Assembly (NCBI RefSeq): GCF_018598225.1
Contig: NZ_JAHESF010000015.1
Location: 62,001 to 126,000, forward strand
Origin: Chryseosolibacter histidinae
GTDB lineage: Bacteria > Bacteroidota > Bacteroidia > Cytophagales > Cyclobacteriaceae
Length of the DNA stretch: 64,000 bases
Direction of reading: 5' to 3'
The notes under the pieces: model-generated
The model's database searches: none
The model's input: the letters and a program-made list of their open reading frames with translations, nothing else
Told to the model about the DNA's origin: nothing
Translations under genes and position numbers: made by a program
Part shown: positions 7,562 to 53,441 of the stretch, piece by piece
Position numbering within the stretch: the stretch's first letter is position 1
Layout: each line of letters begins with the position of its first letter

Positions 7562-7665
7562 CGGTAGTCAGTAATCAGTAACCGGTAATCAGTGATCAGT
7601 AATCAGTAATCGGTATCGGTCGTACTGTGCCTACCGATCACCGATTTACCGAATACCGATTACCA
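7562..7665. repeat. Heptamer inverted-repeat element, CAGTAAT/CGGTAAT family (copy 1)
   Basis: The left arm (7562-7620) is a run of degenerate 7-mers, CAGTAAT and CGGTAAT. After a spacer of about 10 nt, the right arm (7631-7665) carries the complement (CCGATTA, CCGATCA). The arms can pair into one long hairpin. The right arm ends directly at the stop codon of the minus-strand DUF4269 gene (7666-7668). The same heptamer recurs at 50988-51102. Confidence 0.85.
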
Positions 7666-8196
7666 TTATTCCTCCAGTGAAAGCAGGGATTCATACGGAT
7701 CTCCCTGTAGTCCAAGCAACACGGCAAAGGCTGGTTCGGTTTTAGTACCCTGCATTTTAAGTTCCATCACCCGGCGTCTGAAGGTATCACCGCCTTTTTC
7801 CAAAAGTTTATACTCGATGAGCATGTGGCGGTAAGCCATTTGTTCTCTTGGATCGGTTGCCTGAAAGAACAGCTCGAATAAAAATCCCTCAAGGTGGAAA
7901 CGACAGATCAGCGTAGGCACCGATCGGGTATTTTTTTGCAGAATAGAAAAACCAGAATAGGCGGCAAATGTACGCAGCAGAAATTTTTCAACACTTTCAA
8001 AGTCGCTGCTCTGGCAAATGATGTCGAGATCACTTTTTCCGTCGATGAAAAGGTCAAGCGGCAAAGTGCCGGTTAATATGGGACGGAACGGTCTGAGGTG
8101 GTACAATATTTTTGAATGTATGAGCAGATCGTAAGCTTTCCGCTGGATAGGGGAACCGCTTCTTAGGTAGCTGATGTTTTCGAAATCTGGCAGCAT
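7666..8196 (-). CDS. DUF4269 family nucleotidyltransferase-like protein
   Basis: About 176 residues, matching the DUF4269 family. The segment LTGTLPLDLFIDGKSDLDI has the layout of a nucleotidyltransferase-fold active site (G-S/T, then D-x-D), and FHLEGFLFELFFQ plus YRHMLIEYKLLEKGGDTFRRRV are conserved family blocks. Family members have no established reaction that I know of. The ATG at 8196 was chosen over a TTG at 8202. A TATGTTTG element lies immediately upstream and leaves almost no leader. Confidence 0.85.
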   Translation of the reverse strand: MLPDFENISYLRSGSPIQRKAYDLLIHSKILYHLRPFRPILTGTLPLDLFIDGKSDLDIICQSSDFESVEKFLLRTFAAYSGFSILQKNTRSVPTLICRFHLEGFLFELFFQATDPREQMAYRHMLIEYKLLEKGGDTFRRRVMELKMQGTKTEPAFAVLLGLQGDPYESLLSLEE

Positions 8197-8199
8197 ACG

Positions 8200-8207
8200 C
8201 AAACATA
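8200..8207 (-). promoter_or_regulatory. Candidate -7 element TATGTTTG just before the DUF4269 start
   Basis: On the minus strand TATGTTTG matches TAnnTTTG and ends only 3 nt before the ATG at 8196. If used, transcription would start at or next to the ATG, giving a leaderless mRNA. No obvious -33 TTG was seen. Confidence 0.35.
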
Positions 8208-8301
8208 AAGTTAGTCAAAATGGCCAGATAGACGTCGTTTTGTCTGCGAGATTGGAATGGTAATTGTTCTTATGACATTGGCACCAGGAAGGGGAGGAAG
8301 C

Positions 8302-8682
8302 ATGAAAAGAGCAAATTATTTGGATCTGATAACATCGATCGATGTTCTGAATACGGTGAATGGTGGTGTGAGTGAGCCGCAGATCAATCTCATCCACTAT
8401 GAAGATTTCCGCGAGATCCGTCTGAAAATACCCGGTATCAAGCTGGATGAAATACATGTGGAAGTACATAACAACACGCTTTCCATTTTTTATTTCATCA
8501 ACATCATCTGCACCGACAGAATGATCCAGCTTCCGCGATTTGTTTATAACCGTAACGTACCGTATTACATCGATATCAGCAAGATCAAAGCGCGGCTGGA
8601 AAATGAAGAGCTGGTAGTGAACCTGCCGTTCAACCGGCTGGCCAATGGTTATCATAAAGAGATCAAGGTGAACGAAGGGTAA
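8302..8682 (+). CDS. Divergent Hsp20/alpha-crystallin-like protein
   Basis: A 126-residue protein. The core has the alpha-crystallin pattern: FREIRLKIPGIKLDEIHVEVHNNTLSIF (strands including the conserved P-G), then LPRFVYNRNVPYYIDISKIKARLENEELVVNLPF, which ends in the A-x-x-x-N-G-x-L-like block (here ARLENEELVV). Small heat-shock proteins bind unfolded clients without ATP. The protein lacks the usual C-terminal I-x-I tail. The ATG at 8302 follows a purine-rich GGGGAGGAAG ribosome-binding sequence, which favours it over an upstream in-frame start. Confidence 0.75.
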   Translation: MKRANYLDLITSIDVLNTVNGGVSEPQINLIHYEDFREIRLKIPGIKLDEIHVEVHNNTLSIFYFINIICTDRMIQLPRFVYNRNVPYYIDISKIKARLENEELVVNLPFNRLANGYHKEIKVNEG

Positions 8683-8804
8683 ACAATTGACAGTTGACGA
8701 GAAAACAATTGACAACATGTGCGGTATACGTCACTGGATCAGTGCTGTACCCAGGTGGCCTTGTATATCTGTTGTCAATTGCCCTTTTGTCAACTGTCAA
8801 CTAT
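8683..8804. repeat. Heptamer inverted-repeat element, CAGTTGA/CAATTGA family
   Basis: Directly after the TAA stop of the Hsp20-like gene, the left arm (8683-8718) reads ACAATTGACAGTTGAC and repeats ACAATTGACAAC. The right arm (8769-8804) carries the complements GTTGTCAATTG and GTCAACTGTCAAC. Period is 7. The spacer of about 50 nt also contains short self-complementary words. Confidence 0.85.
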
Positions 8805-8878
8805 TAAGTTCCGCAACTTTTCACATGGAATTTTATCCTGCCGATCGGTATCTTTAGCTTTTATGCTAACCGATCTTT

Positions 8879-10063
8879 ATGCCATACGCACTTGCTGACC
8901 AGTCAACGCTGACCTCATCGTCTGTAAAAACACGCATTGCTTCCATAGACATTCTTCGCGGCCTGGTGATGGTGATCATGGCGATCGATCATGTGCGTGA
9001 CTTCTGGGGTGTGGCACCGTTCCGCCCTGAAGATGTGACTCAAACTTCGGTGCCGCTGTTCTTCACGCGCTGGATTACCCACCTGTGTGCTCCAACGTTC
9101 GTTTTCCTCGCAGGCGTCAGTGTATTTCAGCTCGCGCAGAAAAGATCACGGAAGGAGGTGAGTGTGTTTTTGCTCACGAGAGGACTCTGGCTCGTGGTGG
9201 TGGAAGTTGTTGTGTTCACTTTCATTGTAGAATGGCGTTATCAGTTCATCATCTTTGCCGTGCTTTGGGTAATAGGCTGGTCGATGATCCTGCTGGCGGC
9301 CCTGATCTGGTTACCGCGGAAGGTGCTCGCTGCACTGGCGATTGTTGTTGTAGCGGGGCATAATCTTTTGCCCGGTATCCAGGCCGTTACGGCGTCCAAT
9401 CTTTTTCCCGCGTTGCTGGTGAACAGCCCTTTTGTGTTTCCATTGGGTGAAGGTATGCCGACATTGCTGGTAGCCTATACCATTTTGCCCTGGACCGCGG
9501 TGATGATCGCAGGGTATGTTGTTGGTCACTGGTTCACACTTCCTGCCGAACGGCTGAATCGTCAGCTGTGCATGCTGGGAGTGGTGCTGCTTGGGGTTTT
9601 TCTGGTGGTGCGGGCTCTCAATGTTTATGGCGATCCGGTTCCCTGGAGTGTTCAGTCAAGAGGATGGATCTTTACGGTGTGCTCATTTTTGAATGTGACC
9701 AAATATCCGCCGTCGCTGTTGTTTCTCTCTGTGACTATCGGCATCGGCGTGTTGCTGCTGTCTTTTTTCAACAGGCATCAGAACCGAGTTACGGCCTGGC
9801 TGCAGGTGTTTGGCCAGGTGCCCTTCTTTTACTTCCTGCTACACTTTGTCGTTATCAGTGTAGCTGCGTATGCCTGGACCGTGGTGGCTTATGGCAAGCC
9901 CGTCAATCTTTCGTTTGCGGCTGAGCTTCCGCAGGCATATGCGTTTCGTCTCTGGCGGATCTACCTGGTTTGGGCGCTTGTGGTGGCTGCCTTGTATTTT
10001 CCATGCCGATGGTTTGGACACTACAGGAAAAAGCATGCATACTGGTGGCTTTCTTATCTGTAG
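8879..10063 (+). CDS. DUF1624 / heparan-alpha-glucosaminide N-acetyltransferase-like membrane protein
   Basis: 394 residues and around ten membrane helices. The N-terminal block IASIDILRGLVMVIMAIDHVRDFW matches the conserved start of the DUF1624/YeiB-type acyltransferase family, where the His after AID is the proposed acyl-transfer residue, followed by APTFVFLAGVSVFQLAQK. Eukaryotic relatives transfer acetyl groups from cytoplasmic acetyl-CoA to sugars across the membrane; the bacterial substrate is unknown. The gene stands alone between two hairpin-forming intergenic regions. Confidence 0.85.
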   Translation: MPYALADQSTLTSSSVKTRIASIDILRGLVMVIMAIDHVRDFWGVAPFRPEDVTQTSVPLFFTRWITHLCAPTFVFLAGVSVFQLAQKRSRKEVSVFLLTRGLWLVVVEVVVFTFIVEWRYQFIIFAVLWVIGWSMILLAALIWLPRKVLAALAIVVVAGHNLLPGIQAVTASNLFPALLVNSPFVFPLGEGMPTLLVAYTILPWTAVMIAGYVVGHWFTLPAERLNRQLCMLGVVLLGVFLVVRALNVYGDPVPWSVQSRGWIFTVCSFLNVTKYPPSLLFLSVTIGIGVLLLSFFNRHQNRVTAWLQVFGQVPFFYFLLHFVVISVAAYAWTVVAYGKPVNLSFAAELPQAYAFRLWRIYLVWALVVAALYFPCRWFGHYRKKHAYWWLSYL

Positions 10064-10139
10064 AAGAGCATCAGGGATGAGGCGTCAGAATGTTTTGCCC
10101 CGGTTTTGCGGACTGGGCGGTAAATAATCGTAATCAAGA

Positions 10140-10243
10140 CTTGCTTTCTTTCAGCAACGCTGCAACGGGAAGCTTACGGTTTTAGAAGCAGTTGCTTTTA
10201 TCGTCAGTTGCGGACGGACGATCGTCGGTAGAAAGAAAGCAAG
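10140..10243. repeat. Intergenic inverted repeat with 13-bp perfect arms
   Basis: CTTGCTTTCTTTC at 10140-10152 is exactly complementary to GAAAGAAAGCAAG at 10231-10243. The intervening 78 nt contains further GCAAC/GTTGC pairs. It lies between the convergent 3' ends of the DUF1624 gene and the NUMOD4-HNH gene. Unlike the other repeats it is not made of heptamers. A transcribed structured RNA or bidirectional terminator is possible, although no T-tract follows either arm. Confidence 0.55.
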
Positions 10244-10282
10244 CCAACTTTAATAGTCATACACAAGTTGTTGAACTGGTGA

Positions 10283-10849
10283 TCATACGGTAACGTGCGA
10301 CCAGTTCTCACCTGTTTTAATCCGGTGTATCTGCATATCAGAAACCTTGAACTGTTTAGCAAGCGCTTTCAGTGTAGGTTGGTTCTTGGCCTTCAGTGCA
10401 CGTTTGATCTGACGAACTTTGCCGGCATTCAATTTCGGTCCTTCTTCCGGATTCTGGCGCAGCACCACATTCGGGTCTTTCAATGCATGGGAGATCTGGT
10501 CTTCATGCTTTACCCATTTCAGATTATCTGCTTTATTGTTCTCTTTCATGTGATCGACATGGATCACGAAGTTGTGCTTCGGGCTCGGTTTTTTGGTAAA
10601 GTATTCCGCCACGAGACGGTGCAGGTAATAATTCTGACGATTGGCTTCACGGCCGATGGTCACGCTGGGATAACCTTGTGTAAGGCGCGGACGAAGGATG
10701 TAACCTTCTTCGATCTTGGTTTTAAAACTTACGATCCTTCCACGGTTGGAAATGGCGTACCGCTTGGTAGTCACGCCCTTCTTTAGCTCCAGTTCCTTCC
10801 AGCGCTCGCCGGACAGAAACTTGACAGAATTGTTCTTTGTTGTTGCCAT
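10283..10849 (-). CDS. NUMOD4 / HNH-type protein with C-terminal helix-turn-helix
   Basis: 188 residues. Residues about 13-60 (ERWKELE...RYAISNRGRIVSFKTK) match NUMOD4, a module of homing endonucleases. Residues about 75-125 (HRLVAEYF...VIHVDHMKENNKADNLKWV) match the HNH_3 core with the H, D, NN and DNL-W positions present. The last 45 residues (LNAGKVRQIKRALKAK...LAKQFKVSDMQIHRIKTGENW) form a DNA-binding helix-turn-helix. It lies 6 nt downstream of the aminotransferase gene on the same strand. It sits in a normal operon and not inside an intron or intein, so it may be a domesticated DNA-binding protein and not an active mobile endonuclease. Confidence 0.85.
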   Translation of the reverse strand: MATTKNNSVKFLSGERWKELELKKGVTTKRYAISNRGRIVSFKTKIEEGYILRPRLTQGYPSVTIGREANRQNYYLHRLVAEYFTKKPSPKHNFVIHVDHMKENNKADNLKWVKHEDQISHALKDPNVVLRQNPEEGPKLNAGKVRQIKRALKAKNQPTLKALAKQFKVSDMQIHRIKTGENWSHVTV

Positions 10850-10855
10850 AAGAAT

Positions 10856-11758
10856 TTAGTTAAGTTGTTTGGAAAACTTGGGTATTAGGTTTTTGAAGTG
10901 TTCTATGATCTTTTTATAGGTCTTCTTGCCTGAATGGTTGATGATCTTACGGCCGTCGATCTCGGTGACGGGCGTGAGCTCTCCCATTGTACCGGTTGCA
11001 AAAACTTCGTCTGCTGTATAGAATTCTGTAAGTGACAGATTTTTTTCTGCCACAGGTATCTTCAGCTCCGCGCAAATTTCTATGGTAAGGCCGCGGGTGA
11101 TGCCGTGAAGACAGGCATCGGCGTGCGGCGTAAATACTGAACCATCCTTGATGAGGAAAATATTTGTATCGTTAAGCTCTGCCACAAATCCGTGGTCATC
11201 GAGCATGATGGCCGCGTCTGCTCCGGCAACGTTGGCCTGGATCTTGGCCAGGATGTTATTGAGCAGGTTGTTGTGGTGGATCTTGGAGTCGAGGAATTGC
11301 GGGTTGTTCCTCCGTTGTGAGGAGGTGATCACCCTGATCCCCGAGTCGTTGTCATACACCAGCGGTTTCCATTCGGCCAGCACGATCAGGCACGAGCCCT
11401 TTGTGTTCAGGCGCGGATCCATGCCTGACGTAACCTTCTCGCCACGGGTCAGCGTAAGCCTGATGTGGGTGTTGTCAGTCATACCGTTGGCCTGAAGGGT
11501 TTCGGCAATGGCCTTTTTGATCTCTTCCCTGGAGGGGATGTGCGCAAATGCCAACGCATGCGCTGAAGCCTGGAGGCGGTCAAGGTGGTGGTCGAGGCAG
11601 AAAATGCCTTCTTTATAGAGCCTCAACCCTTCCCATACTGCGTCTCCGCCCTGCACTACGCTGTCGAAAACGGAAACTTTTGCCTCTTGACGTGGCATGA
11701 GCCTCCCTCCAACGTGAATAAAGATGTTAGAGTTTTGTGGATTAAATTTTTGCAACAT
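10856..11758 (-). CDS. Class IV PLP-dependent aminotransferase (branched-chain type)
   Basis: 300 residues, fold type IV. The N-terminal domain has the family block VFDSVVQGGDAVWEGLRLYKEGIFCLDHHLDRL. The PLP-binding lysine is predicted at K159 in FLDSKIHHNNLLN, and the cofactor-phosphate region is seen in DEVFATGTMGELTPVTEIDG. The family contains branched-chain-amino-acid aminotransferase, D-amino-acid aminotransferase and aminodeoxychorismate lyase; overall layout favours the first, but the specificity is not certain. It heads a two-gene operon with the NUMOD4-HNH gene and follows a sulfotransferase gene on the same strand, about 110 nt apart. Confidence 0.9.
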   Translation of the reverse strand: MLQKFNPQNSNIFIHVGGRLMPRQEAKVSVFDSVVQGGDAVWEGLRLYKEGIFCLDHHLDRLQASAHALAFAHIPSREEIKKAIAETLQANGMTDNTHIRLTLTRGEKVTSGMDPRLNTKGSCLIVLAEWKPLVYDNDSGIRVITSSQRRNNPQFLDSKIHHNNLLNNILAKIQANVAGADAAIMLDDHGFVAELNDTNIFLIKDGSVFTPHADACLHGITRGLTIEICAELKIPVAEKNLSLTEFYTADEVFATGTMGELTPVTEIDGRKIINHSGKKTYKKIIEHFKNLIPKFSKQLN

Positions 11759-11869
11759 ACTTCACCTGTAGCTACACGTACGTGAGCTAATCAATTAACC
11801 AGTAAAATCCTTTTCAATCGGGCGGGTAAAAATGGGCTTGAGTAAAGTAAAGATTATTTTCGCTATGGG

Positions 11870-12580
11870 TCAAGCTTTTATGGAAAATGGTAACAGTTTT
11901 TCGTAATAACCCCTGGCCTGCTGATAGAGAGGCCCCAAATGTTGCGGTAAAGGGCGATCGCTGGTCTGCTGTTTTTTAAAACCCGTGGACTGGTGTACAT
12001 TCTCATACCAGTAAGGAGCCCAAACACCATCATAAGGTTTCGCACCGGCCTTCCAATGAAGCATGGCAGGCTGAAAACCAATAGCACAACGGTGGCAAAG
12101 CTTTTCCAGCACACTGGCAGGATCTTCCAATAACAGTCCCGAATCAAGAACAATCGGTTGTTCGCCCTTTTTTTCCAGTTGTTGGAAAAGTTGATACTGA
12201 TACTCGATGCCGATGTCGCGCATCACAGGATTTTCAATCACCTGTGCATAGCTGGCGATGATCTGCTTCGGGTCGCGGATGAGGAAAATATGGATCGCTT
12301 TTTCGATAAACGGAGCTTGCATCACCTCCATGTGGTGCGCCATATTTTTTACGAACAACACCGGTTTGCCTGCCGAAGCGAGCTGCGCCTTTACGGTAGC
12401 TTCGTCGGGCGACTGAGAAGCCAGCACTTCATCCCTTCCGGGATGTTGCGCACCACTTTTTGAAAGGTAGAGCGCATAAAACGGCTCATCTTCAACTTGG
12501 ATGTCATTCCTTTGGGCAAAAGAATACATGAGGGCCGTAGAAATATTTCTGGGGCCCGAGATCAGGTTCAGTGTTGTCAA
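11870..12580 (-). CDS. P-loop sulfotransferase-like protein
   Basis: 236 residues. The N-terminus TLNLISGPRNISTALMYSFAQR is the 5'-phosphosulfate-binding P-loop of the sulfotransferase superfamily, and IHIFLIRDPKQIIASYAQV is the 3'-phosphate-binding block (RDPxxxxxS). A TTG start at 12580 gives the expected family N-terminus and no in-frame ATG exists nearby. It lies 7 nt downstream of the zinc-finger gene and upstream of the aminotransferase, an arrangement that suggests shared metabolism, but the acceptor substrate is unknown. Confidence 0.8.
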   Translation of the reverse strand: MTTLNLISGPRNISTALMYSFAQRNDIQVEDEPFYALYLSKSGAQHPGRDEVLASQSPDEATVKAQLASAGKPVLFVKNMAHHMEVMQAPFIEKAIHIFLIRDPKQIIASYAQVIENPVMRDIGIEYQYQLFQQLEKKGEQPIVLDSGLLLEDPASVLEKLCHRCAIGFQPAMLHWKAGAKPYDGVWAPYWYENVHQSTGFKKQQTSDRPLPQHLGPLYQQARGYYEKLLPFSIKA

Positions 12581-12587
12581 CGGAATA

Positions 12588-12956: not shown

Positions 12957-12977
12957 CTTAAAATGTTTACAAACGAA

Positions 12978-12991
12978 TATAATCGATTATA
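12978..12991. promoter_or_regulatory. 14-bp perfect palindrome between the zinc-ribbon gene and ssb
   Basis: TATAATCGATTATA is a perfect palindrome in the divergent intergenic space, 22 bp upstream of the minus-strand ATG (12956) and 115 bp upstream of ssb. It is placed to act as an operator for the minus-strand unit. No matching regulator is encoded beside it. Confidence 0.35.
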
Positions 12992-13462: not shown

Positions 13463-13510
13463 CCGCACGGGCTGCCCGGTTCCCGTAAGAATCGGGTAGT
13501 CTGAGGGGTT

Positions 13511-13555: not shown

Positions 13556-13742
13556 GCAGTTTAAAGTTTAAGATTTAAGGTTAAAGTTGGGTTCGTCGCA
13601 GCAACGGTAAGTTGTTAAATCTGCTATCGGCCTTGAATGAATCAGATTCCACCAACCGGCAACGGGCAACCATTCACCGCTCCTAACTTTAAGCCTTGAA
13701 CTTTAAACTTCAAACTTTAAACTTCAAACTTCAAACTTTTAA
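13556..13742. repeat. Heptamer inverted-repeat element, TTTAAAG family
   Basis: The left arm (13556-13590) reads GTTTAAAGTTTAAGATTTAA and onward. The right arm (13684-13742) carries the complements, with at least seven 7-mers of AACTTTA and AACTTCA type. The spacer is about 95 nt. It begins immediately after the ssb terminator, so it is one of the two elements not abutting a stop codon, and it fills the whole 304-bp gap up to the BatA-family gene. Confidence 0.85.
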
Positions 13743-13753
13743 CCTCCCCGGGT

Positions 13754-17568: not shown

Positions 17569-18126
17569 ATGGAAGAAACAGCAGTTGTCCAACAATCGTC
17601 CTGGTTCCAGGATGCCATGAAAAAAGGCTTAATACTGGGCGTGATACATATTGTTCTTTTTCTTGTTATTTATGTGGCTTTTCCCAGTAAATTGACGGGA
17701 TTTTCCTACCTGTTTATCATCCTGGCGGTAAATCTTGGTTATACGATATACCAGGGTATTCAATGGAGAAAAAGTGTAGGAGGTTATGTTAGCTATGGAG
17801 CTGCTTTCAAATACGCATTTATCGTATTGCTTTTTAATGGATTGCTCGGTACGGTGTTTACAGCAATATTTTTGCTGATCGATCCGGCGTTTCCTGACCA
17901 GATGGCCCAATCGCAACTGGATACCTCTATATATTGGGCCCAGAAGTTTGGTGCACCGGAAGATGCGGTGGAGCAGATAAGGGATAAGTACAACCCGGAA
18001 GACGTAACGAAACGTTTTACGCCTCTGGGAATGTTAACAGGCTTTGGCATTGCGCTATTATTTTATGGCTTGGGCGCATTGATCATCGGCCTTTTTGTAA
18101 GAAAACGTGAGCCTGAAATGATTTAA
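17569..18126 (+). CDS. DUF4199 family membrane protein (second copy)
   Basis: 185 residues with the same four-helix plan (LILGVIHIVLFLVIYVAF, YLFIILAVNLGYTIYQGIQWRK, YAFIVLLFNGLLGTVFTAIFLL, GFGIALLFYGLGALIIGLFV). It lies 12 nt after the first copy, a tandem pair from an old duplication with divergent sequences. The stop codon overlaps the start of the glycosyltransferase gene (TAATG). The pairing suggests a hetero-oligomer, but that is inference. Confidence 0.85.
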   Translation: MEETAVVQQSSWFQDAMKKGLILGVIHIVLFLVIYVAFPSKLTGFSYLFIILAVNLGYTIYQGIQWRKSVGGYVSYGAAFKYAFIVLLFNGLLGTVFTAIFLLIDPAFPDQMAQSQLDTSIYWAQKFGAPEDAVEQIRDKYNPEDVTKRFTPLGMLTGFGIALLFYGLGALIIGLFVRKREPEMI

Positions 18127-19133
18127 TGAACAGAGAGAATCTTGATATTTCCGTAGTAATACCCGCACAAGACGAAGAGGAATCACTTCCGGAATTGTGT
18201 CAATGGATAGGCCGTGTGATGCAAGCGCACGGCTTTTCCTTTGAAGTGATCATGATCGACGATGGAAGCACAGACCAGACGTGGCAGAAGATAGTGGAGA
18301 TCAACGCCGCCGACAGCCGCTTCAAAGGCATCCGTTTCAATCGCAATTTTGGTAAATCCGCCGCCCTGCAAACCGGCTTCCGGGCCGCCAAGGGCAACGT
18401 GGTGATCACCATGGACGCCGACCTCCAGGACAGCCCTGACGAGATCCCGGAGCTCTATAAGATGATCAGCGAAAAAGGATTTCACCTCGTATCGGGCTGG
18501 AAGAAAAAAAGATACGACCCGCTCTCGAAGACCATCCCCTCCAAGTTCTTCAATTACATTACCCGGAAGCTGTCAGGCATCGACCTGCACGACTTCAACT
18601 GCGGACTGAAGGCCTATCAGACCTCCGTGGTCAAGAATATCACGGTGTATGGAGAAATGCACCGCTACATTCCCCTGATCGCAAAATGGGCTGGTTTTAC
18701 CAGGATCACGGAAAAACCGGTAGAGCACCAGGAGCGCAAATATGGCCGTACCAAATTCGGGCTCGAACGTTTTATCAATGGTTTCCTCGACCTGCTGTCG
18801 ATCACTTTTGTGAGCCGCTTCCGGCAAAAGCCCATGCACTTTTTTGGAACCTTTGGAACACTGTCTATGGCGATCGGTTTTCTGTTCACCGTCAAGCTGT
18901 TCTGGGATAAAATGGATTCACTGTTCTTTTCAAAGTTGCCCATGAAAAGGGATATTACGGCCCAACCGCTATTTTACCTGGCACTGGTAGCCCTGATCAT
19001 CGGGGTGCAGCTGTTCGTAACTGGGTTCCTTGCCGAGATGATCGCCATGCAAAGCTTGTCTAAGAGGGATTATCTGGTGATAGACGAAGTAGGGTTGCAG
19101 GATCTCCCCACGAAGAAGATCGTTATTCAGTAG
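18126..19133 (+). CDS. GT2 glycosyltransferase (dolichol-phosphate-mannose-synthase/DPM1 or ArnC type)
   Basis: 335 residues. The catalytic GT-A domain begins DISVVIPAQDEEESLPEL, has the DDGSTDQTW block, and the metal-binding DADLQD at about residues 97-102. Two C-terminal membrane helices (FGTLSMAIGFLFTVKLFW and ALVALIIGVQLFVTGFLAEM) are typical of polyprenyl-phosphate glycosyltransferases such as ArnC/GtrB. It probably transfers a sugar from a nucleotide donor to undecaprenyl phosphate at the inner membrane. Translation is coupled by a one-base overlap with the upstream DUF4199 gene. Its own TAG stop lies inside a CAGTAGG heptamer. Confidence 0.9.
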   Translation: MNRENLDISVVIPAQDEEESLPELCQWIGRVMQAHGFSFEVIMIDDGSTDQTWQKIVEINAADSRFKGIRFNRNFGKSAALQTGFRAAKGNVVITMDADLQDSPDEIPELYKMISEKGFHLVSGWKKKRYDPLSKTIPSKFFNYITRKLSGIDLHDFNCGLKAYQTSVVKNITVYGEMHRYIPLIAKWAGFTRITEKPVEHQERKYGRTKFGLERFINGFLDLLSITFVSRFRQKPMHFFGTFGTLSMAIGFLFTVKLFWDKMDSLFFSKLPMKRDITAQPLFYLALVALIIGVQLFVTGFLAEMIAMQSLSKRDYLVIDEVGLQDLPTKKIVIQ

Positions 19134-19281
19134 GCAGTAGGCAAAATGGCAGTAGGCAAAGTTCGTGCTGCGATTTTGTTAGGTGCTGCTGCCGAACCCG
19201 AAAATAAAAAAAGTGATTTGTTTGACCCACCATTTGCCTACTGCTCCGATGCCTATCGGGGTTTGCCTACTGCCTACTATT
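19128..19281. repeat. Heptamer inverted-repeat element, CAGTAGG family (copy 1)
   Basis: The left arm starts inside the last codons of the upstream gene (19128-19160; CAGTAGGCAGTAGGC), so the stop codon TAG is part of the repeat. The right arm (19230-19281) carries GCCTACTG units. The central part also holds a short GTTCG...CGAAC stem. The related element at 21641-21706 keeps only the right-arm type of heptamer. Confidence 0.85.
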
Positions 19282-21612: not shown

Positions 21613-21640
21613 AAACCTGGTCCCTGGCATCTGGGCGGGT

Positions 21641-21706
21641 CGGTTGCCTACCGCTCCCGATAATTATCGGTCCCGATAGCTATCGGGATTGCCTACTGCC
21701 TACTGG
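21641..21706. repeat. Partial CAGTAGG-family element with two perfect palindromes
   Basis: CCGATAATTATCGG (21657-21670) is followed directly by TCCCGATAGCTATCGGGA (21671-21688), both perfect palindromes, then GCCTACTGCCTACTGG. The second palindrome recurs at 53405-53422 and, shortened to 14 bp, at 22620-22633. Only the right-arm type of heptamer is clear; the expected left arm is degenerate. It lies between the OmpA-family stop and the next start. Confidence 0.75.
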
Positions 21707-21765
21707 CTTAACAATTTGTTAATATTTCTATTTTTTAGAACTTTTGCGTCCGAATAACCCGGCCT

Positions 21766-22542: not shown

Positions 22543-22700
22543 TTAAAGGAGCAGGGACATCACTATCCCTAGCTCCTTACTTCAACCTACTAGCTATGTC
22601 TTAAGTACGAGGTACGATCCCGATAGCTATCGGAACGAGGTACGGAGGATCCGGCTTCGGGCGACTCCTTACTCCTTAATTCTTACTCCTTACTCCTTTT
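22543..22700. repeat. Mosaic heptamer element, TAAGGAG/GTACGAG family (copy 1)
   Basis: It fills the gap between two convergent genes and abuts both stops. From the left stop it reads TAATTAAAGGAG; from the right stop (minus strand) it reads TGAAAAAGGAGTAAGGAG. Nested inside is a core of about 45 bp with GTACGAGGTACGATCC and the palindrome CCGATAGCTATCGG (22620-22633). That core recurs in inverted orientation at 53395-53441. Confidence 0.85.
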
Positions 22701-31352: not shown

Positions 31353-31387
31353 GGTACCACCCGTGGAATAATTTGAATTCTTTGAAT

Positions 31388-31658
31388 GGTCCACGGTCCG
31401 CAGTCCACGGACCACAGCAGTGCAGTGCGACATCGCAGGATCGTACCTTGTAGTATCAGGCCCCCTACCGGATGTTAGGGGTGTTTCTGATAGTCGGGAT
31501 CCTTCGCGCGCACAAGGCCAGCACGCCTGCACTGCTCAGGATACCGGCTCAGACGGATTGGATAAAAATAAAAAAAGCCCCGGAGGGCTTTTTAAAAAAC
31601 TGTGAACTATCGACCACCTCGTTTGCTGAAGCTACGAACGCAGCCGATGTGTGGACTA
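31388..31658. repeat. Heptamer inverted-repeat element, GTCCACG/GTCCACA family (copy 1)
   Basis: Left arm 31388-31418 (GGTCCACGGTCCGCAGTCC and onward). The right arm is degenerate and split: CTGTGAACTATCGACCACC at 31600-31618 and GTGTGGACTA at 31649-31658. Read on the minus strand, the rny stop codon TAG is the first three bases of TAGTCCACAC, so the stop lies inside the repeat. The rny terminator sits in the spacer. The same heptamer family recurs at 36466-36597 and 48930-49094. Confidence 0.7.
31572..31593 (-). terminator. Intrinsic terminator downstream of rny
   Basis: AAAAAGCCC (31572-31580) pairs with GGGCTTTTT (31585-31593) around the tetraloop CGGA. On the minus strand a long T-rich tail follows. 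It lies about 65 nt beyond the rny stop codon; the same hairpin may also work in the other direction. Confidence 0.8.
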
Positions 31659-36419: not shown

Positions 36420-36465
36420 AAGGTCTTTGATGAAATCTCCCCTAAAAGTTGTGAAAACTCTTGAA

Positions 36466-36597
36466 TAGTCGACGGTCCACAGACGACGGTCGACGGTTAG
36501 ACCGGGTGAAAGATCACCGGTTCTGTGTTTCGTTGTCAGAAAAGCGAAAACAGCAACAAAACTGCCGTGGACTGTGGTCTGTCGACTGTGGACTTTA
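36466..36597. repeat. Heptamer inverted-repeat element, GTCCACA/GTCGACG family (copy 2)
   Basis: Left arm 36466-36500 (TAGTCGACGGTCCACAGACG and onward); right arm 36564-36597 (GTGGACTGTGGTCTGTCGAC and onward). Read on the minus strand, the DUF1684 stop TAA is followed at once by AGTCCACAGTCGAC. The spacer contains a second small inverted repeat (CCGGGTGA...TCACCGG). Confidence 0.85.
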
Positions 36598-46873: not shown

Positions 46874-47089
46874 ATGGATAAGTTCAAAGACCTCCTTCAG
46901 CGCTTCAGCAAAAACACGGCATCGCAGCCGGAAGCTGAAGAATTCCTGCGCATGAGCCAAAACGACGAGGCGGCTGCCGAAATTGAAAAGCACATGGACG
47001 ACCTGTTGGCGCGCGACGATGAGCAAAAGGGGCTGAATGAGCAGGAATGGACTGAATCGATCCAGCAGATCTTAAAGAAAAGAGTATAG
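46874..47089 (+). CDS. 71-residue protein resembling the cytoplasmic head of FecR anti-sigma factors
   Basis: MDKFKDLLQRFSKNTASQPEAEEFLRMSQ resembles the N-terminal cytoplasmic part of Bacteroidota FecR proteins, which binds the ECF sigma. The product ends after 71 residues with no membrane helix or periplasmic FecR domain. It follows an operon whose sigma factor lacks a normal FecR, so it may act as a free mini anti-sigma. The FecR relationship is a pattern judgement; a small unrelated helical protein is possible. Confidence 0.6.
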   Translation: MDKFKDLLQRFSKNTASQPEAEEFLRMSQNDEAAAEIEKHMDDLLARDDEQKGLNEQEWTESIQQILKKRV

Positions 47090-47174
47090 CATGTAGAATT
47101 TAGAATATAGAATGAGGTATTTGTATTATTCTAAATTCTAACTCCTAAATTCTAAATTCTGTTTTAAAATTCTA
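47087..47174. repeat. Heptamer inverted-repeat element, TAGAATT family
   Basis: Sits between two convergent genes and touches both stops. From the left stop TAG it reads TGTAGAATTTAGAATATAGA; the right arm (47126-47174) carries TTCTAAATTCTAACTCCTAA and onward. On the minus strand the AraC stop TAG is itself the first part of TAGAATT. Spacer only about 8 nt. Confidence 0.9.
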
Positions 47175-48050: not shown

Positions 48051-48185
48051 AAAACGTGGGGTTAACCGACTTAATTTCGCAAAATCGCCAGAACGCATGT
48101 TTACGTTTTCCGGATAAAATTTTATGATTTTTGAAAATTTTCATCGCCACTAGTCATCGTTTCGTGCGTCCGTGTCTTATTTAAA

Positions 48186-48424
48186 ATGCAAAACGCAAAA
48201 AAGCGCAAAGGAACCGCAGAGACCGCAGAGAAGTATATGCAGTATTTCCTCTGGCCTGCGCAGATCTGTTTGAATCGCTTATCGGATACGGCAGGAGAAC
48301 ACAAAGATTTCGCTAATGCTCGTTCAAGGAGAACTCTGCGCCCTCTGCGTGTTCTCCGCGATCTCCGCGGTTAAAAAAAACTTAGCCGCTTTGCCTCTTC
48401 GTGCACTTTGCGTGAACTGCATTG
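48186..48424. repeat. Nonamer inverted-repeat element (CCGCAGAGA / TCTCCGCG type)
   Basis: Between two divergent genes. The left arm (48186-48231) ends with ACCGCAGAGACCGCAGAG, two identical 9-mers; the right arm (48324-48424) carries CTCTGCGCC, CTCTGCGTG, TTCTCCGCG and ATCTCCGCG, then CTTTGCGTG-type words that complement the AAACGCAAA part of the left arm. Period 9, not 7. Similar CTCTGCG/CTTTGCG words are, as far as I recall, common intergenic repeats in many environmental bacteria. The remaining bases of this 530-bp gap show nothing recognisable. Confidence 0.75.
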
Positions 48425-48629
48425 TTATTAAAGTACTTCTTAGTCTCAGGAGTTTCCTCTAAATGGGTAACGTTGGCAAAATCAGGACCGGAACGCCTCT
48501 CTTCAAATCCTTGCATTGATTAAGAAGGTTTAGGTTAATATATCTCAGCTCGGCTTCCGGTTCCTGATTTTATTTTAAAATGTAATACTGAAAATATTTC
48601 CATCCTTGAAATTACTGCTACAGCGTTGG

Positions 48630-48932
48630 ATGGGGCGTAAGCCAGGCCCCAAAAAAGATCTTCATGGTTTTGTTAAGGACGAGCAGCATGTATGCCGCGC
48701 CTGTATGAATCCCCTGTCAGGCTGGAGCCTCACCGGTTCGCTCGAAGAAGATGATATCCTCGTCTGCGCCACCTGCGGCCGCTCCGGAAGATTCAGCAAC
48801 AAGTTCGGCCTGGTACCCATGACCAACGACGAGATCATAGGCCTGTTCCTGGAATTACCACTTCAGGACTGGCTGAAAATGCACGAGCTCGAATACAAGA
48901 TCCGGCAGGAACGACAACGCGGAAATGCATAG
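48630..48932 (+). CDS. Small zinc-ribbon protein
   Basis: 100 residues from ATG 48630. Two CxxC pairs (CRACMN and CATCGR) spaced about 29 residues apart should bind one zinc ion. The C-terminal part is helical (NDEIIGLFLELPLQDWLKMHELEYKIRQERQR). No family is recognised. The TAG stop lies inside the following TAGTCCACA heptamer. A TTG upstream (48606) would add eight residues and is less likely. Confidence 0.65.
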   Translation: MGRKPGPKKDLHGFVKDEQHVCRACMNPLSGWSLTGSLEEDDILVCATCGRSGRFSNKFGLVPMTNDEIIGLFLELPLQDWLKMHELEYKIRQERQRGNA

Positions 48933-49094
48933 TCCACAGCCCACGGTCGACGGTCCACAGCAATGCCGTGCTAAATCAGCGTTTGCTTATTTCGAGACGG
49001 TAGTAGTACCTGCCAATGGCTATCTGGATACGAAGTGCGGTCATGGCCGACACACTACACGGCCGTGGACTGTCGACTGTGAACCGTGGACTCT
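48930..49094. repeat. Heptamer inverted-repeat element, GTCCACA/GTCGACG family (copy 3)
   Basis: Starts with the stop codon of the zinc-ribbon gene: TAGTCCACAGCCCACGGTCG and onward (48930-48960). The right arm (49059-49094) reads GCCGTGGACTGTCGACTGTG and onward. Spacer about 98 nt. Same family as 31388-31658 and 36466-36597. Confidence 0.88.
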
Positions 49095-49178
49095 TCGGTA
49101 ATCTTTTCTTAACGAATTAATAATCAACATTCATTACGGTGCCCTTCATTATCTGATAATTTTCGGTTTAATTCTGCA

Positions 49179-50987
49179 ATGAGGTTTCGTATCAATACAA
49201 TAACCACACGGTTGTTCTTTTCTTTCGGTATCCTTGTCTTCAATATTGTGATCATTTCAGTGCTGGCCCTGTTCTTCCTCTGGCGCACAGGTGTGATCAG
49301 CAAGATCAGCCACCGCATCGACAACCAGCGGATCCTGGCCATACAGCTTATTAAAACCGATCTCGATTTTCTGCGGTTTGAAACCGTCAATCAGCAGTAT
49401 TATGAAACAGGGCAGAGTTCGCTACTGCAGCAGCGCGACAGCCTCTCAGAATTGATTCGCAATCAGAACCTGTTATTATACGGCGAAATGGTGGCGAACG
49501 ACTTCCTGATCGACTATGAGTTTCACCAGATCGACAGTGCGCTTGCCATCTACAATACTACTTTCAGCGTGCTCACGTCCAGGATCAACGAGCGCGGCTT
49601 TAAAGATCACGGGCTGGAGGGCATCATGCGTGAGTATGCACACCAGCTCGAGAACATGCATACTGCCATTCCTATGACGGAGCTGCTCACCCTGCGCCGC
49701 CATGAAAAAGATTTCATGCTGCGCAAGGAAGACCGTTACATAGATCGCTTCAATGAAGTGGCCGCCAGGGCATTGCTGGCCATGAACCAGAAGGGACAAC
49801 AGGCTTGCGCCGAGATCCTCGGAAATTACCAGGCTGCATTCAGGCATCTCACGGCACTCGACTACGAGATCGGCGTCACGCCCCAGGAAGGACTGCTCGG
49901 CAAGCTGAACGTTCAAACGAAGGTGATGTCAGACCGGCTGGCGCAGCTCACACTGCTGTCGAACGAGCGTAAAGACGAGGTGATCAAAAAAAGCGCGATC
50001 ATCTTTTCGGTGATCTCTTTTATTCTCATCGTTTTTTCGATGATCCTTACTTATTACACTTCCACCCGGCTGGCAAGACCGATCCGGAAGCTTTCATCCA
50101 CCATCGGAAAATTTATTGTGAACGAAGGGCTGAATGAAAAGGAGCTGGAGAATGCGGCCGTCGCCGATGAGATCGGTAATCTTTCACATTCCTTTATCAA
50201 GCTGAGCCGCAAATTGAAAACACAGTTCAGCGAGATCCTCCACCAGAACAAAGAACTGCAAAAGCTCAACGAAGAGCTCGACCGTTTTATCTATAGCGCT
50301 GCCCACGACCTCAAGTCGCCACTGGCGTCGTTGCACGGACTGGTTTTACTGGCCGAAAGAGAGATCAACAGTCCACAGCATGCGCATTACTTCGAGATGA
50401 TGAGCGCTTCGCTGGGCAAGCTCGATGGATTTATCCGCGACATCACCGACTACGCCAAGAACAAAAGACAGCAGCTCAGGGTAGAACGTGTGGATGCGGA
50501 GCGTATGGTACGGGAGATCCTCGAAAGCGTGAGGTTCCTTCCCCAGGCGGACCGCATGCAGGTGATTGTGAACATCGAAGGAGCTGATTTCTATACCGAC
50601 AAAACCCGGCTCGAGATCATCCTTAAAAACCTGATCTCAAATTCCTTTCGCTACATGGACTTCACCAAGAGCGATCCCTTTATCAGGATAGAGGGTGTGG
50701 TGAGCGAAACCTGTATGAATATTTCGGTGGCCGATAACGGCATCGGTATTGCCAGGCAACACATTCGCAAAGTGTTCGATATGTTCTACAGGGCCGTTGA
50801 ACATTCAAAAGGAACGGGCATCGGATTGTTCCTCGTAAAAGAGTCGGTGAAGATGCTGCGGGGCCGGATCTCTGTAAAGTCGAGCCTCGGTGAGTGGACC
50901 GTTTTTTACCTGAACCTGCCTAATCTCAGGCAAGGCAATGTGAACACACCTGAAAGCGAAGCCGTGATACTGGACGAGATGATCTAG
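49179..50987 (+). CDS. Membrane sensor histidine kinase
   Basis: 602 residues. Two membrane helices (LFFSFGILVFNIVIISVLALFFLW near 12-35 and IIFSVISFILIVFSMILTYY near 275-295) flank a large helical periplasmic sensor domain of about 235 residues. HAMP linker, then HisKA with the phosphorylated His at about residue 376 (FIYSAAHDLKSPLASLHGL), N-box LKNLISNSFRYMD, G1 VADNGIGI and G2 GTGIGLFLV of the HATPase domain. No response regulator gene is adjacent. The YfiR-family gene follows after a repeat. Confidence 0.94.
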   Translation: MRFRINTITTRLFFSFGILVFNIVIISVLALFFLWRTGVISKISHRIDNQRILAIQLIKTDLDFLRFETVNQQYYETGQSSLLQQRDSLSELIRNQNLLLYGEMVANDFLIDYEFHQIDSALAIYNTTFSVLTSRINERGFKDHGLEGIMREYAHQLENMHTAIPMTELLTLRRHEKDFMLRKEDRYIDRFNEVAARALLAMNQKGQQACAEILGNYQAAFRHLTALDYEIGVTPQEGLLGKLNVQTKVMSDRLAQLTLLSNERKDEVIKKSAIIFSVISFILIVFSMILTYYTSTRLARPIRKLSSTIGKFIVNEGLNEKELENAAVADEIGNLSHSFIKLSRKLKTQFSEILHQNKELQKLNEELDRFIYSAAHDLKSPLASLHGLVLLAEREINSPQHAHYFEMMSASLGKLDGFIRDITDYAKNKRQQLRVERVDAERMVREILESVRFLPQADRMQVIVNIEGADFYTDKTRLEIILKNLISNSFRYMDFTKSDPFIRIEGVVSETCMNISVADNGIGIARQHIRKVFDMFYRAVEHSKGTGIGLFLVKESVKMLRGRISVKSSLGEWTVFYLNLPNLRQGNVNTPESEAVILDEMI

Positions 50988-51102
50988 TAACGGAGTCAGT
51001 AATCGGTAATCAGTAACCAGTAATCAGGATCAGTAACGTGGAGGGATAATACAACGCTCGAACCGATTACTGAATACCGATTACCCGATTACCGTTTACC
51101 AT
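50988..51102. repeat. Heptamer inverted-repeat element, CAGTAAT/CGGTAAT family (copy 2)
   Basis: Starts 3 nt after the TAG of the histidine kinase: left arm 50991-51037 (GGAGTCAGTAATCGGTAATC and onward), right arm 51061-51102 (ACCGATTACTGAATACCGAT and onward). Same heptamers as 7562-7665, 43 kb away. Confidence 0.9.
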
Positions 51103-51180
51103 TTTGTTTAATAATGCCCCCGTAACATCCGGATAACAGCAACGCACTAGTATTGACGGATCACCAACGAATCATTCAGG

Positions 51181-51714
51181 ATGCGTATTCGAAGTCTTAC
51201 AAGATCGATAAGGTTTATCGCACTTTGCACACTCTTCACGTTGACCAGGGGCCAGGTGTGGTCGCAATCGCAGGAAAAAATATATTCGGCGATGATGCTC
51301 AATTTTGCAAGAGGTATACAATGGCCCGAAACAAAAAACAACGGAAATTTTGTCATCGGTGTGCTGGAGTATCCTCCGTTGGCGGCGGAGCTGGGTACAG
51401 CAACGGCCTCCGCTAAAATAGGAAATCAGAAGATCGAGGTAAAAGAAATTCAGCGACCCGAGGAGGTTGGAGGATGCCATATCCTTTTTATCCCTGCTTA
51501 CAAAGCCAGGGCCCTGGCTGCGGTGCTGGAAAAAATAGGTGTTCAGCCGACACTCATTATTACCAATAAGATGGACTATGCCAGAAAAGGAAGCGGCGTG
51601 AATTTTCTGCTGGTGGAAGGTAAACTGAAATATGAGATCAACTGCGGATCGATCGAGCGCAGAGGTATGAAGATCTCTGCCAACGTGAAAAGAATGGGGA
51701 TCATCGTGGAATAA
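51181..51714 (+). CDS. YfiR/DUF4154-family periplasmic protein
   Basis: 177 residues with a signal peptide (IRFIALCTLFTLTRGQVWSQ). The mature part matches DUF4154/YfiR: KIYSAMMLNFARGIQWPE, FVIGVLEYPPLAAEL, CHILFIPAYKARALAAVL, LIITNKMDYARKGSGVNFLLVEGKLKYEINCGSIERRGMKISANVK. YfiR proteins repress diguanylate cyclases or kinases from the periplasm. Its place right after a sensor kinase with a large periplasmic domain suggests it modulates that kinase. Confidence 0.88.
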   Translation: MRIRSLTRSIRFIALCTLFTLTRGQVWSQSQEKIYSAMMLNFARGIQWPETKNNGNFVIGVLEYPPLAAELGTATASAKIGNQKIEVKEIQRPEEVGGCHILFIPAYKARALAAVLEKIGVQPTLIITNKMDYARKGSGVNFLLVEGKLKYEINCGSIERRGMKISANVKRMGIIVE

Positions 51715-51751
51715 AATTAACCTAGCGAAATCGGAGAGGAAGGCGCAGGCA

Positions 51752-51782
51752 CAAAAAAAGGTGCCATTTGTTCAATGGCACC
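51752..51782 (-). terminator. Terminator downstream of the small periplasmic protein gene
   Basis: GGTGCCATT (51760-51768) pairs with AATGGCACC (51774-51782) around TGTTC. On the minus strand a run of T residues follows (the A-run at 51752-51759). It terminates the 51840-52223 gene and could also act on the convergent YfiR-family transcript. Confidence 0.85.
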
Positions 51783-51839
51783 CGTAATGTTTCAGCCTTC
51801 TGTTTGGTCAGCACGAAACAAACTCTTCAGACGAGCAGA

Positions 51840-52223
51840 TTATTTTTTCTGGTCATCTTTTTGCTCTTTGTCCAGCTTATTGCCGTCCTTGTCGAACTTC
51901 ACAGTTTTGGTTTCTGCACCGTTTCTCAGGTCAAGGATGTAAATTTCTTCTCCTGCTTTTGTGGCGTTCTCACCTTGTACACCGGAGTCGCTCATGGTCG
52001 ACTTGTAGGCTGCAGCTACTGTCCAGCCTTGGTAGTCCTGACTTTCGATGGCCCTTTTAACAGGGTCCGGAAGGTCGCTCACCTGTACCTGTTCACGTTG
52101 CTGGTCCTGAGATGTAGTAGTAGTGGACTGTTGAGGCTGTGGTTGTACCGAAGTTGTATCCTGTGCGTTAACAAAAGCAACACCACCCAACAACAGGCCT
52201 ATTGATAACAATAACTTTTTCAT
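51840..52223 (-). CDS. Small periplasmic PepSY-like protein
   Basis: 127 residues with signal peptide MKKLLLSIGLLLGGVAFVNAQ. A Gln/Thr/Ser-rich linker is followed by LPDPVKRAIESQDYQGWTVAAAYKS...EEIYILDLRNGAETKTVKFDKDGNKL, which has the pattern of the PepSY-like (DUF2874-type) beta-alpha fold common in Bacteroidota. Function unknown; single gene with its own terminator. Confidence 0.75.
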   Translation of the reverse strand: MKKLLLSIGLLLGGVAFVNAQDTTSVQPQPQQSTTTTSQDQQREQVQVSDLPDPVKRAIESQDYQGWTVAAAYKSTMSDSGVQGENATKAGEEIYILDLRNGAETKTVKFDKDGNKLDKEQKDDQKK

Positions 52224-52383
52224 GACTTTAAAGAGTTTAGTTTAACATATTTTCCCGCCTTTAATTCGAATGTCGTACCTATCTGGCAAGGCCGCTTCTA
52301 ACTCATTGCCATTCAGGGCTCAAAAAAAACGACTATTCCATACGCCCGCTTAACGTGTTGCATTATTCTACAGCGGTGGGAAA

Positions 52384-52426
52384 ACCTCACCCCGACCGCC
52401 TCCTCCCAGAAGAGGGCAGGTGAGGT
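52384..52426. repeat. Intergenic GC-rich hairpin (ACCTCACC/GGTGAGGT)
   Basis: ACCTCACC (52384-52391) pairs with GGTGAGGT (52419-52426), with a pyrimidine-rich/purine-rich interior (CCTCCTCCC...GAAGAGGG). A/T stretches flank both sides. It lies in the divergent space upstream of the rhodanese gene. It resembles common short hairpin repeats seen in many bacteria. Confidence 0.6.
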
Positions 52427-52463
52427 ATTTTCAAGCAACAATTCTTATCGTTATCTTGATGGT

Positions 52464-53342
52464 ATGAAAAAAATAAGTGGCCTTTTCCTGCTCATGTGCC
52501 TGTTATTGGTGGCGAAAGCAGAAGATAAACCGATCCTGGTGTCAGTACAATGGTTGAAGGAACACCTCCGCGACCCAAATGTTGTGGTGCTTCAGACCAG
52601 TTTCCTGAAATTCGATTACGATCGCGAACACATTGAAGGAGCCCGCTACCTGTGGCCCGGATGGCTTGCGCCGGATTCGCCGGAAGGCGCCTACAATGCG
52701 CCGGACCTGAAAAAAGCTACCGAGCTGCTGCAAACATTGGGCGTGTCAGACAACTCTCACATTGTGTTGTGCCACATCCGCGGTGAGGTAAGCCCCACAG
52801 CGCGTATGTTCCTCACGTTAGAGCACCTGGGCTTCGCCGGGAAAGTATCTTTTTTGAACGGAGGCCTTGACGCCTGGAAAAAGGAAGGCAACCCTGTTAC
52901 GAAAGATGTGCCCGTGGTAAAAAAAGGAAATGTTAAGATCAGCCCTGGTGTTCCGCTGCTGGTAGACAAGAACTATGTGCTGAAAACATTGAAGTCTGAC
53001 AACGGCATTGTTGTGGATGCACGCATGCAGCGCTTCTATGACGGTGAGCCTACCGGCAATCCCCGCGACGGACACATCACAGGTGCCAAAAATATCCCCT
53101 ATACAGAAATGGTGGATCAGGCTAACATGTTCAAGCCACTGGACCAGCTCCAGGCTTATTTTACACCTGTATCCGGAAAGGACAAAGAATTAGTAACCTA
53201 TTGCTTCATTGGCCAGACCGCCAGTGTGGTATACATGGCTGGAAGATTGCTCGGCTACAATATGAAACTGTATGACGGCTCACTGCAGGAGTGGAGCAGA
53301 TTGGAGGAGCTACCGATGGAGAAAACAGAGAAAAAGGAGTAA
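52464..53342 (+). CDS. Periplasmic two-domain rhodanese (sulfurtransferase)
   Basis: 292 residues with a signal peptide (KISGLFLLMCLLLVAKAE). Two rhodanese domains: the N-terminal one (VSVQWLKEHLRDPNVVVLQTSF...HIEGARYLWPG) and the C-terminal one with the catalytic loop YCFIGQTAS, Cys present. The N-terminal domain also has a Cys in LCHIRGEVS. It transfers sulfur from thiosulfate-like donors to thiols. Its TAA stop lies inside a GGAGTAA heptamer. Confidence 0.92.
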   Translation: MKKISGLFLLMCLLLVAKAEDKPILVSVQWLKEHLRDPNVVVLQTSFLKFDYDREHIEGARYLWPGWLAPDSPEGAYNAPDLKKATELLQTLGVSDNSHIVLCHIRGEVSPTARMFLTLEHLGFAGKVSFLNGGLDAWKKEGNPVTKDVPVVKKGNVKISPGVPLLVDKNYVLKTLKSDNGIVVDARMQRFYDGEPTGNPRDGHITGAKNIPYTEMVDQANMFKPLDQLQAYFTPVSGKDKELVTYCFIGQTASVVYMAGRLLGYNMKLYDGSLQEWSRLEELPMEKTEKKE

Positions 53343-53441
53343 GAATTAAGGAGTAAATAGTAAGGAGGTGGCCCTTCGATTAAACACCGCGCTACGTACT
53401 TCGTTCCCGATAGCTATCGGGATCGTACCTCGTACCTTTAA
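53336..53441. repeat. Mosaic heptamer element, TAAGGAG/GTACGAG family (copy 2)
   Basis: It begins inside the last codons of the rhodanese gene (GGAGTAAGAATTAAGGAGTA and onward, 53336-53368). A shared core follows: TACGTACTTCG, palindrome TCCCGATAGCTATCGGGA (53405-53422), then GATCGTACCTCGTACC. The core is the reverse complement, with few differences, of the core at 22603-22645. The element lies between convergent genes. Confidence 0.88.

Follow-up and report, generated by a model that had tools for sequence, protein, structure and literature searches.

Inverted pairs of tandem heptamers at gene ends of Chryseosolibacter histidinae: a possible REP-like class of dispersed elements

What are the intergenic hairpins of Chryseosolibacter histidinae, each built from a run of tandem heptanucleotides, a spacer and the complementary run, and what keeps their period at seven while their spelling changes from locus to locus? 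They were first noticed in the letters of one stretch of 64,000 nucleotides (contig NZ_JAHESF010000015.1, here C29, positions 62001-126000), hereafter the window, in which twelve intergenic loci were predicted to share a design and not a sequence. Arrays are indeed present at all twelve. We surveyed 864 kb of the genome (8.04 Mb in 122 contigs; label G000), that is the window plus 800 kb out of four other contigs, and the single design with its changing spelling and period of 7 holds and is wider than reported, with stop-codon siting, a fixed polarity, four-unit arms and a precedent in Xanthomonas now added to the description. The reading that we favour, at slightly less than an even chance, is that these elements form a class of dispersed 3'-end insertions with heptamer arms, similar to repetitive extragenic palindromes (REPs), which would be spread by a trans-acting protein.

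Geometry and siting of the heptamer arms

Tandem arms were called by a lag-7 scan at 12 or more matches out of 14, with fifth-order Markov sequence as the null, and by the profiles of eleven heptamer families with the arm cut-off at a score of 16, while genes were called as crude greedy open reading frames (ORFs). The lag scan returned 134 arms at period 7 and 2 in the Markov control, and the other periods, multiples of 7 excepted, gave between 1 and 22 arms each; the original prediction had named equal numbers in shuffled sequence and a period other than 7 as grounds for refuting it, and neither was found. The profiles reached 251 arms, and on contig C45 they gave 129 arms vs 1 in its Markov control, which contained zero neighbouring arm pairs. 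A reversed-family control (140 matches vs 285 real at a score of 14) was set aside as invalid because some families, such as ACTGTCA, are palindromic in spelling order, and the Markov control was used instead. The arms of the lag scan are listed in 97 groups, and ACT or ACC occurs on one strand in 106 of 119 stricter arms vs 39% of intergenic heptamers. Altogether 96 paired elements from nine families were recorded, with two further families lacking pairs, and extrapolation from the surveyed DNA suggests a whole-genome total of approximately 900 paired elements. RNA folding of five window elements gave z-scores from -2.5 to -7.6, with 3 of 200 shuffles folding equally well for the element at 47087 and none for the other four; the median minimum free energy of 70 elements, computed without shuffles, was -51 kcal/mol.

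Neighbouring arms of the same family follow one polarity, an RGT-form preceding an ACY-form in 91 of 94 pairs (one pair is reversed and two have the same form twice), a count that spans the nine families with pairs and in which the form names of AATTCTA and ATCTCAA were assigned by us. Inward stop codons in every frame were considered as a cause of this polarity, however, by reading they suit many own families and not several of those in the congener G002, and the idea was dropped. G exceeds C in the 5' arms of eight of the nine own families, a bias that by reading fails in G002. Arm length by profile is 28-35 nt, corresponding to four units, in 145 of the 251 arms. The subfamilies of ACYRTGG covary between arms (15 CC, 7 TT and 1 mixed among the 23 scored of 26 elements, with CAC/CAT matching in 22 of 23), and the two arms are thus coupled at the family level, travelling or being kept as a set. 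An element's own 3' arm is equalled or outscored by an average of 61% of the foreign 3' arms from its family (63 of 96 elements tested), with the exception of ACYRTGG, in which the own arms score slightly higher (17.8 vs 16.4). The absence of a better match between own arms indicates that they have not simply been copied from each other in place.

The loops fall into two classes of about 5-35 nt and about 60-130 nt, split largely by family. In long loops a weak motif, GTGCAGTGTnA, tends to begin 2 nt inside, and a loop-edge profile trained on ACYGGCA also scores the edges of ACYRTGG (p 0.010 vs shuffled sequence, 4e-4 vs loop interior) and of ACTGCCT (p 0.004 and 0.003, respectively), which is suggestive of an edge motif shared across families. 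In loop alignments the information was 28.2 (shuffles 20.7-23.4) and 25.4 (shuffles 14.6-23.4), and loop self-structure had a mean z of -0.35, with 5 of 55 loops below -2. The sequence immediately flanking the arms is depleted of G and enriched in T.

The elements are concentrated at gene ends. The distance from the stop codon to the start of the first arm is at most 5 nt for 72 of the 138 first arms located in gaps and at most 10 nt for 93. By setting, 137 arms are in tandem gaps, 68 in convergent gaps, 15 in divergent gaps and 31 inside crude ORFs, compared with a background of 226 tandem, 83 convergent and 83 divergent gaps of at least 60 nt. The array often supplies the stop itself, TAG accounting for 18 of 28 stops near ACYRTGG arms vs 160 of 678 genes. 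Of the 25 paired elements in convergent gaps, 14 reach to within 15 nt of the stop on either side, and another 9 do so at one end.

The same design in relatives

A comparison of RNase Y places the genome in the Cytophagales, with Fulvivirgaceae bacterium JP3-4 nearest and Chryseolinea and Ohtaekwangia close. The surroundings of RNase Y in relatives (80 loci, 1.45 Mb, one locus from JP3-4) hold 12 arms with no excess over other periods, compared with 119 in the 864 kb surveyed here. In 800 kb of the congener G002 period 7 is dominant again, with one of its 38 words (AAACCTT) recurring among the 32 words here. CAGTAGG pairs, too, are present in G002 (6 vs 29 here). Since the two congeners keep the design but have largely different words, a comparison of array-rich with array-poor relatives should make it possible to search for the generating factor.

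Gain and loss at orthologous sites, a comparison that the original prediction had called for, are seen against G002. The 62 junctions conserved with this congener carry an element only here in 12 cases, only in G002 in 4, in both in 2 and in neither in 44, although the 12 and the 4 should not be compared directly, as our own side was searched by profile plus lag scan and G002 by lag scan alone. The G002 detector missed the both-cases C26 80289|80737 and C26 124081|124142 as well as a G002 array at the DUF1684|pheT junction, all of which came to light by eye or with the single detector applied to both sides below. The difference in junction length has a median of 1 (-103 to 105) for the 44 bare junctions and of 85 (-546 to 221) for the 12 with an element only here, with several large negative values where G002 holds other DNA or an array missed by the detector. 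At C26:78715|78849 both species have an element, which is spelled GTCCATR here and GGCATTA in G002, and at the other both-case of the 62 junctions (window 19133) the G002 array sits elsewhere in a longer gap. With one detector on both sides, 101 orthologous gene ends gave 23 here, 7 in G002 and 3 in both (two junctions), and shuffled own tails gave 0 of 101; co-occurrence at these 101 ends was insignificant (p 0.19, or p 0.36 with a cruder detector). Many conserved junctions are without an element in the congener, and much of the gain is therefore lineage specific.

The DUF1684|pheT junction has been followed further. In the window a 130-nt element begins at the stop codon, and among 48 other loci a heptamer hairpin occurs in the first 400 nt only in L077, from JP3-4, where GGCTATG words enclose a 71-nt loop 4 nt past the stop; no lag-7 arm was called in any of the 48 relatives' loci. 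Inverted partners were found for 62 of 119 own arms, 28 of 70 in G002 and 21 of 61 in G014, which belongs to another family and also has many heptamer words, with 4, 5 and 3 in the respective reversed-arm controls. The composite AGTCCACRGTCSACRGTCCAC has 103 copies here. Among 147 further genomes from the same family, five have 17, 9, 3, 2, and 1 copies and the rest, both congeners included, have 0. Across 395 genomes of the phylum, our own among them, CAGTAGG hairpins with gaps of 60-90 nt number 33 here, 2 in G338 and 4 in G520, and there are 0 hairpins of the opposite polarity in the same 395. Six CAGTAGG loci were read, of which L245 (here) and L246 (G338) lie within 6 nt of stops, and for the remaining four (L242, L243, and two of G520) our own ORF calls show no stop within 50 nt.

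Two further repeats were met in relatives. G439, of the same class and another order, has 19 matches to the backward control pattern ACGGATGAC..GTCATCCGT, which form a separate inverted repeat family. L169:2270-2620 (G100:C295) contains a unit of about 60 nt repeated six times in tandem, each copy with the last codons of the upstream gene, its stop and heptamers; we take this gene to encode a nucleotide-sugar enzyme.

How the elements may have spread

The same words are found at many unlinked loci, which implies that words disperse, and slippage alone does not do so. If the elements are REP-like insertions, a trans-acting protein recognizing the heptamer array as four subsites of fixed polarity would spread the unit, and heptamer families would diverge through the co-evolution of protein and site. 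Insertions would survive mainly right behind stop codons, with the array often providing the stop, and the hairpin could then act as a two-way barrier at 3' ends, possibly with a two-way terminator effect. Arms that are alike around loops that are unlike point to constrained arms with old loops or to fresh loops at insertion; either the arms may be held alike by selection or conversion as the spacers drift, or the spacers may be made anew upon insertion.

Several observations weigh against such an origin. Target duplication is absent from the 72 elements examined (2.42 vs 2.36 ± 0.10), no mobilizing protein was found, and the PF01797 matches and gene neighborhoods gave no consistent link to Y1 transposases (REP-associated tyrosine transposases, RAYT). 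PF01797 has 4 matches in G000, 4 and 5 in the congeners and 0 in the array-bearing G079, with 13 genomes positive overall, and arms lie within 1.5 kb in 5 of 20 Y1 neighborhoods (2 of the 4 own matches included), with differing words; at L169 the arrays are about 1.5 kb away from a Y1 transposase gene. Copying of whole units should also leave more recent look-alikes than the loops show. The loops are largely unrelated, 8 of 60 having another match at E<=1e-5 against the 864 kb, mostly via nested repeats, with two of these matching loop-wide at 76-77%, and two loops searched genome-wide had no second copy. The loop-edge profile does not transfer to every family, failing for ACTTTAA against shuffled sequence (p 0.14; 0.04 vs interior) and for ACTGTCA (p 0.14 vs shuffled, 0.26 vs interior) and being borderline for G002 edges (p 0.09 vs shuffled, 0.012 vs interior), and it should be noted that its seed motif was picked after the edges of several families had been viewed, so that the transfer is not fully independent. 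The geometry is also softer by cruder measures, as raw lag-7 runs most often measure 21-27 nt (60 of 119), a less sharp fit to four units, and a lag scan that counts either arm puts 30 of 105 here, and 19 of 52 in G002, no more than 10 nt from a stop. Lastly, direct partners in G014 nearly equal inverted ones (18 vs 21).

A possible but rather unlikely alternative is that the elements are bidirectional terminators or mRNA 3'-end hairpins selected at each gene end, with dispersal being secondary. The siting at stop codons and the median folding energy given above speak for this, as does the rarity of intrinsic terminators in convergent gaps with an element (4 of 36 vs 16 of 43 without; Fisher p 0.0096). 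The flanks are moderately T-rich, 35 of 144 having five or more T among 10 nt where base composition predicts 16 (p 1e-5), and this enrichment slightly raised our estimate for the terminator explanation and slightly lowered those for the REP-like reading and for slippage. However, a true T-run is not evident, TTTT falling within 12 nt in only 13 of 144 flanks, and intrinsic terminators are about as common in tandem gaps with an element as in those without (14 of 74 vs 20 of 138). Moreover, there is no sign of RNA-level wobble, the transcribed strand of the tandem elements having 45 G.U and 51 A.C mismatches, the element downstream of RNase Y still has an ordinary GC-stem plus T-run terminator inside its loop (31563-31600), and the hairpin at DUF1684|pheT is missing in 47 of 48 relatives. 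If the elements do stop transcription, they would represent a fast-evolving way of ending genes.

It is improbable, in our estimation, that each element is made on the spot by polymerase slippage on heptamers followed by hairpin templating, the mechanism originally suggested. The constancy of period 7 while spelling shifts between the two congeners would suit this, as would the many words of G014, and local expansion does occur, as in the long pure arrays of G079 and the six tandem gene-end copies of L169. A 7-nt slippage unit is also on record (Mrazek 2007, as cited in PMC4679880). The suggestion is nonetheless unsupported, since identical words recur at scores of unlinked loci and own arms match each other no better than foreign arms, although templating predicts the best match in place; the four-unit peak in profile arm lengths also argues against it, and the fixed polarity is left unexplained. 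Slightly less credible again is the view that an ordinary transposase moved the elements as miniature inverted-repeat transposons whose terminal repeats are rich in heptamers. The long-loop class does measure about 110-150 nt with inverted ends and a weak common subterminal motif, and some junctions show a net length gain (e.g., 190 vs 41 nt), but the target duplication expected of such transposons is lacking, interiors share little, and no parent element was noticed, though no search for one was made.

Elements of the window and known systems

Eight window elements, for which as for the others no strand is assigned, are clear inverted pairs of a single family. The CAGTAAT/ATTACTG element at 7544-7668 has a 5' arm at 7544-7620, a loop of 11 and a 3' arm at 7632-7668 (fold of 7562-7668, z -4.2), and the CAGTTGA/CAACTGT element at 8683-8802 lies behind the stop of an HSP20-like gene at 8257-8682 (fold of 8683-8806, z -7.6). 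The TTTAAAG/AACTTTA element (13558-13743) has a loop of 96 and a nested AACCGGC arm at 13653-13671. In the CAGTAGG/TGCCTAC element (19128-19278) the first unit contains the TAG stop of a glycosyltransferase gene (18126-19133) and the 3' arm holds a CCGATGCCTATCGG-type palindrome. The GTCSACR element at 36465-36594, with 30-nt arms, abuts the DUF1684 stop on the minus strand (z -4.9), and the TAGAATT/AATTCTA element at 47081-47174 is situated amid convergent genes (fold of 47087-47174, z -2.5). The GTCCACR element at 48928-49092 has a loop of 102 with no second copy in the genome, and a second CAGTAAT element (50986-51100) abuts the stop of a sensor kinase gene at 49179-50987 (fold of 50988-51100, z -3.7).

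The original prediction of a tandem run, spacer and complementary run describes these eight well, but the other sites are weak, single-armed or of mixed family. Downstream of the RNase Y gene a GTCCACR element (31386-31616) combines an array at 31386-31417 with a partner at 31599-31616 that is weak, with a score of 13. The partial CAGTAGG array reported at 21641 amounts to a single TGCCTAC arm at 21690-21708, the remainder of 21637-21708 (left boundary by eye) being degenerate and broken by CCCGATAGCTATCGGG-type palindromes. Both TAAGGAG and GTACGAG, as reported for 22543, are found at 22543-22698 between convergent genes; the TAAGGAG array is on the right (3' arm 22664-22698), the left partner of this array, judged by eye, comprises roughly one unit, and the GTACGAG arm (22603-22617) is nested. 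At 53334-53437, also flanked by convergent genes, the arrays taken for one element at 53336 are real, but the TAAGGAG and CGTACCT arms belong to unrelated families and are not self-complementary. Rfam gave 0 matches at the gathering threshold across the window.

Other repeats are interleaved with the arrays. The CCCGATAGCTATCGGG palindrome is likely a separate small dispersed repeat, having 64 exact copies in the genome and variants that often invade heptamer arms (window 21670-21689, 22618-22635, and 53405-53422, the last inside the two-family site). A second palindrome, approximately CACAATCGCTTCGCGATTGTG, is nested in CAGTAGG arrays at C26:113298-113321 and 134160-134185 (within L044 and L045). 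A longer repeat (about 185 nt), which carries GGATCCTTC cores and CCGTCATCCTGA-like ends, occurs in long heptamer loops and alone, in part at window 31496-31551 and elsewhere at C45:5070-5257 and C26:66234-66429 and 121076-121270. Small dispersed repeats nested in tandem heptamers, reportedly described by Elhai in 2008 from Nostoc, of another phylum, resemble the CCCGATAGCTATCGGG nesting in being short palindromes within heptamer arrays.

REPs are palindromes of 20-40 bp tagged with GTAG or CGTC at one end. Here, GTAG falls within 20 nt around the outer end in 14 of 96 pairs, 8 of which are the entire CAGTAGG family, and CGTC in 3 of 96, while the arms are tandem heptamers and a transposase neighbor is inconsistent. 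The earlier view that these hairpins are unrelated to standard REPs consequently stands for sequence but not for location, as published REPs and bacterial interspersed mosaic elements are of high copy number, often in inverted pairs, in convergent and same-direction gaps, generally under 20 bp away from a 3' end and often the source of a TAG stop (PMC3733652). In the open-access literature we found no paper on multi-family heptamer hairpins in Bacteroidota. The short tandemly repeated repetitive (STRR) sequences of cyanobacteria are tandem heptamers, intergenic and strain specific. So too are the TAACTGA repeats of Beggiatoaceae, although these consist mainly of direct arrays ahead of start codons, with one inverted set of 170 reported, in contrast to the inverted pairs at stops seen here (PMC4679880).

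The closest likeness in layout is to the GGGAATC repeats of Xanthomonas, which share the four units, the inverted pairs and the siting at stop codons on the coding strand, and whose authors tie the four units to the G-tracts needed for a quadruplex (PMC4692102). Unit number, inversion and siting are therefore already known from that system; what is new here is the many word families without G-tracts, nine paired and two unpaired against, by the published description, one word type per genome (PMC4692102). The consensus words lack a G3 run, and any GGG is present in 19 of 96 pairs and four or more in 0 of 96, yet the four-unit arms persist, so that the quadruplex reason for four units cannot be general. 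Published accounts describe an excess of tandem heptamers in some bacteria and attribute it to polymerase slippage or to G-quadruplexes (PMC4679880; PMC4692102), neither of which explains a four-unit arm, a polarity and a stop-codon site maintained across at least nine words without G-tracts. We put forward only tentatively, and would lean against it if pressed, the wider proposal of a proliferating class that crosses phyla and is defined by geometry, with four heptamers, a spacer and four complementary heptamers in one polarity at a stop, and with each lineage rewriting the word in the units of both arms, so that congeners may differ at the same junction. If true, this would call for a protein that recognizes both the period and the polarity, or for a protein that co-evolves with its word set, and the Xanthomonas GGGAATC repeats would be one instance of the class rather than a quadruplex system.

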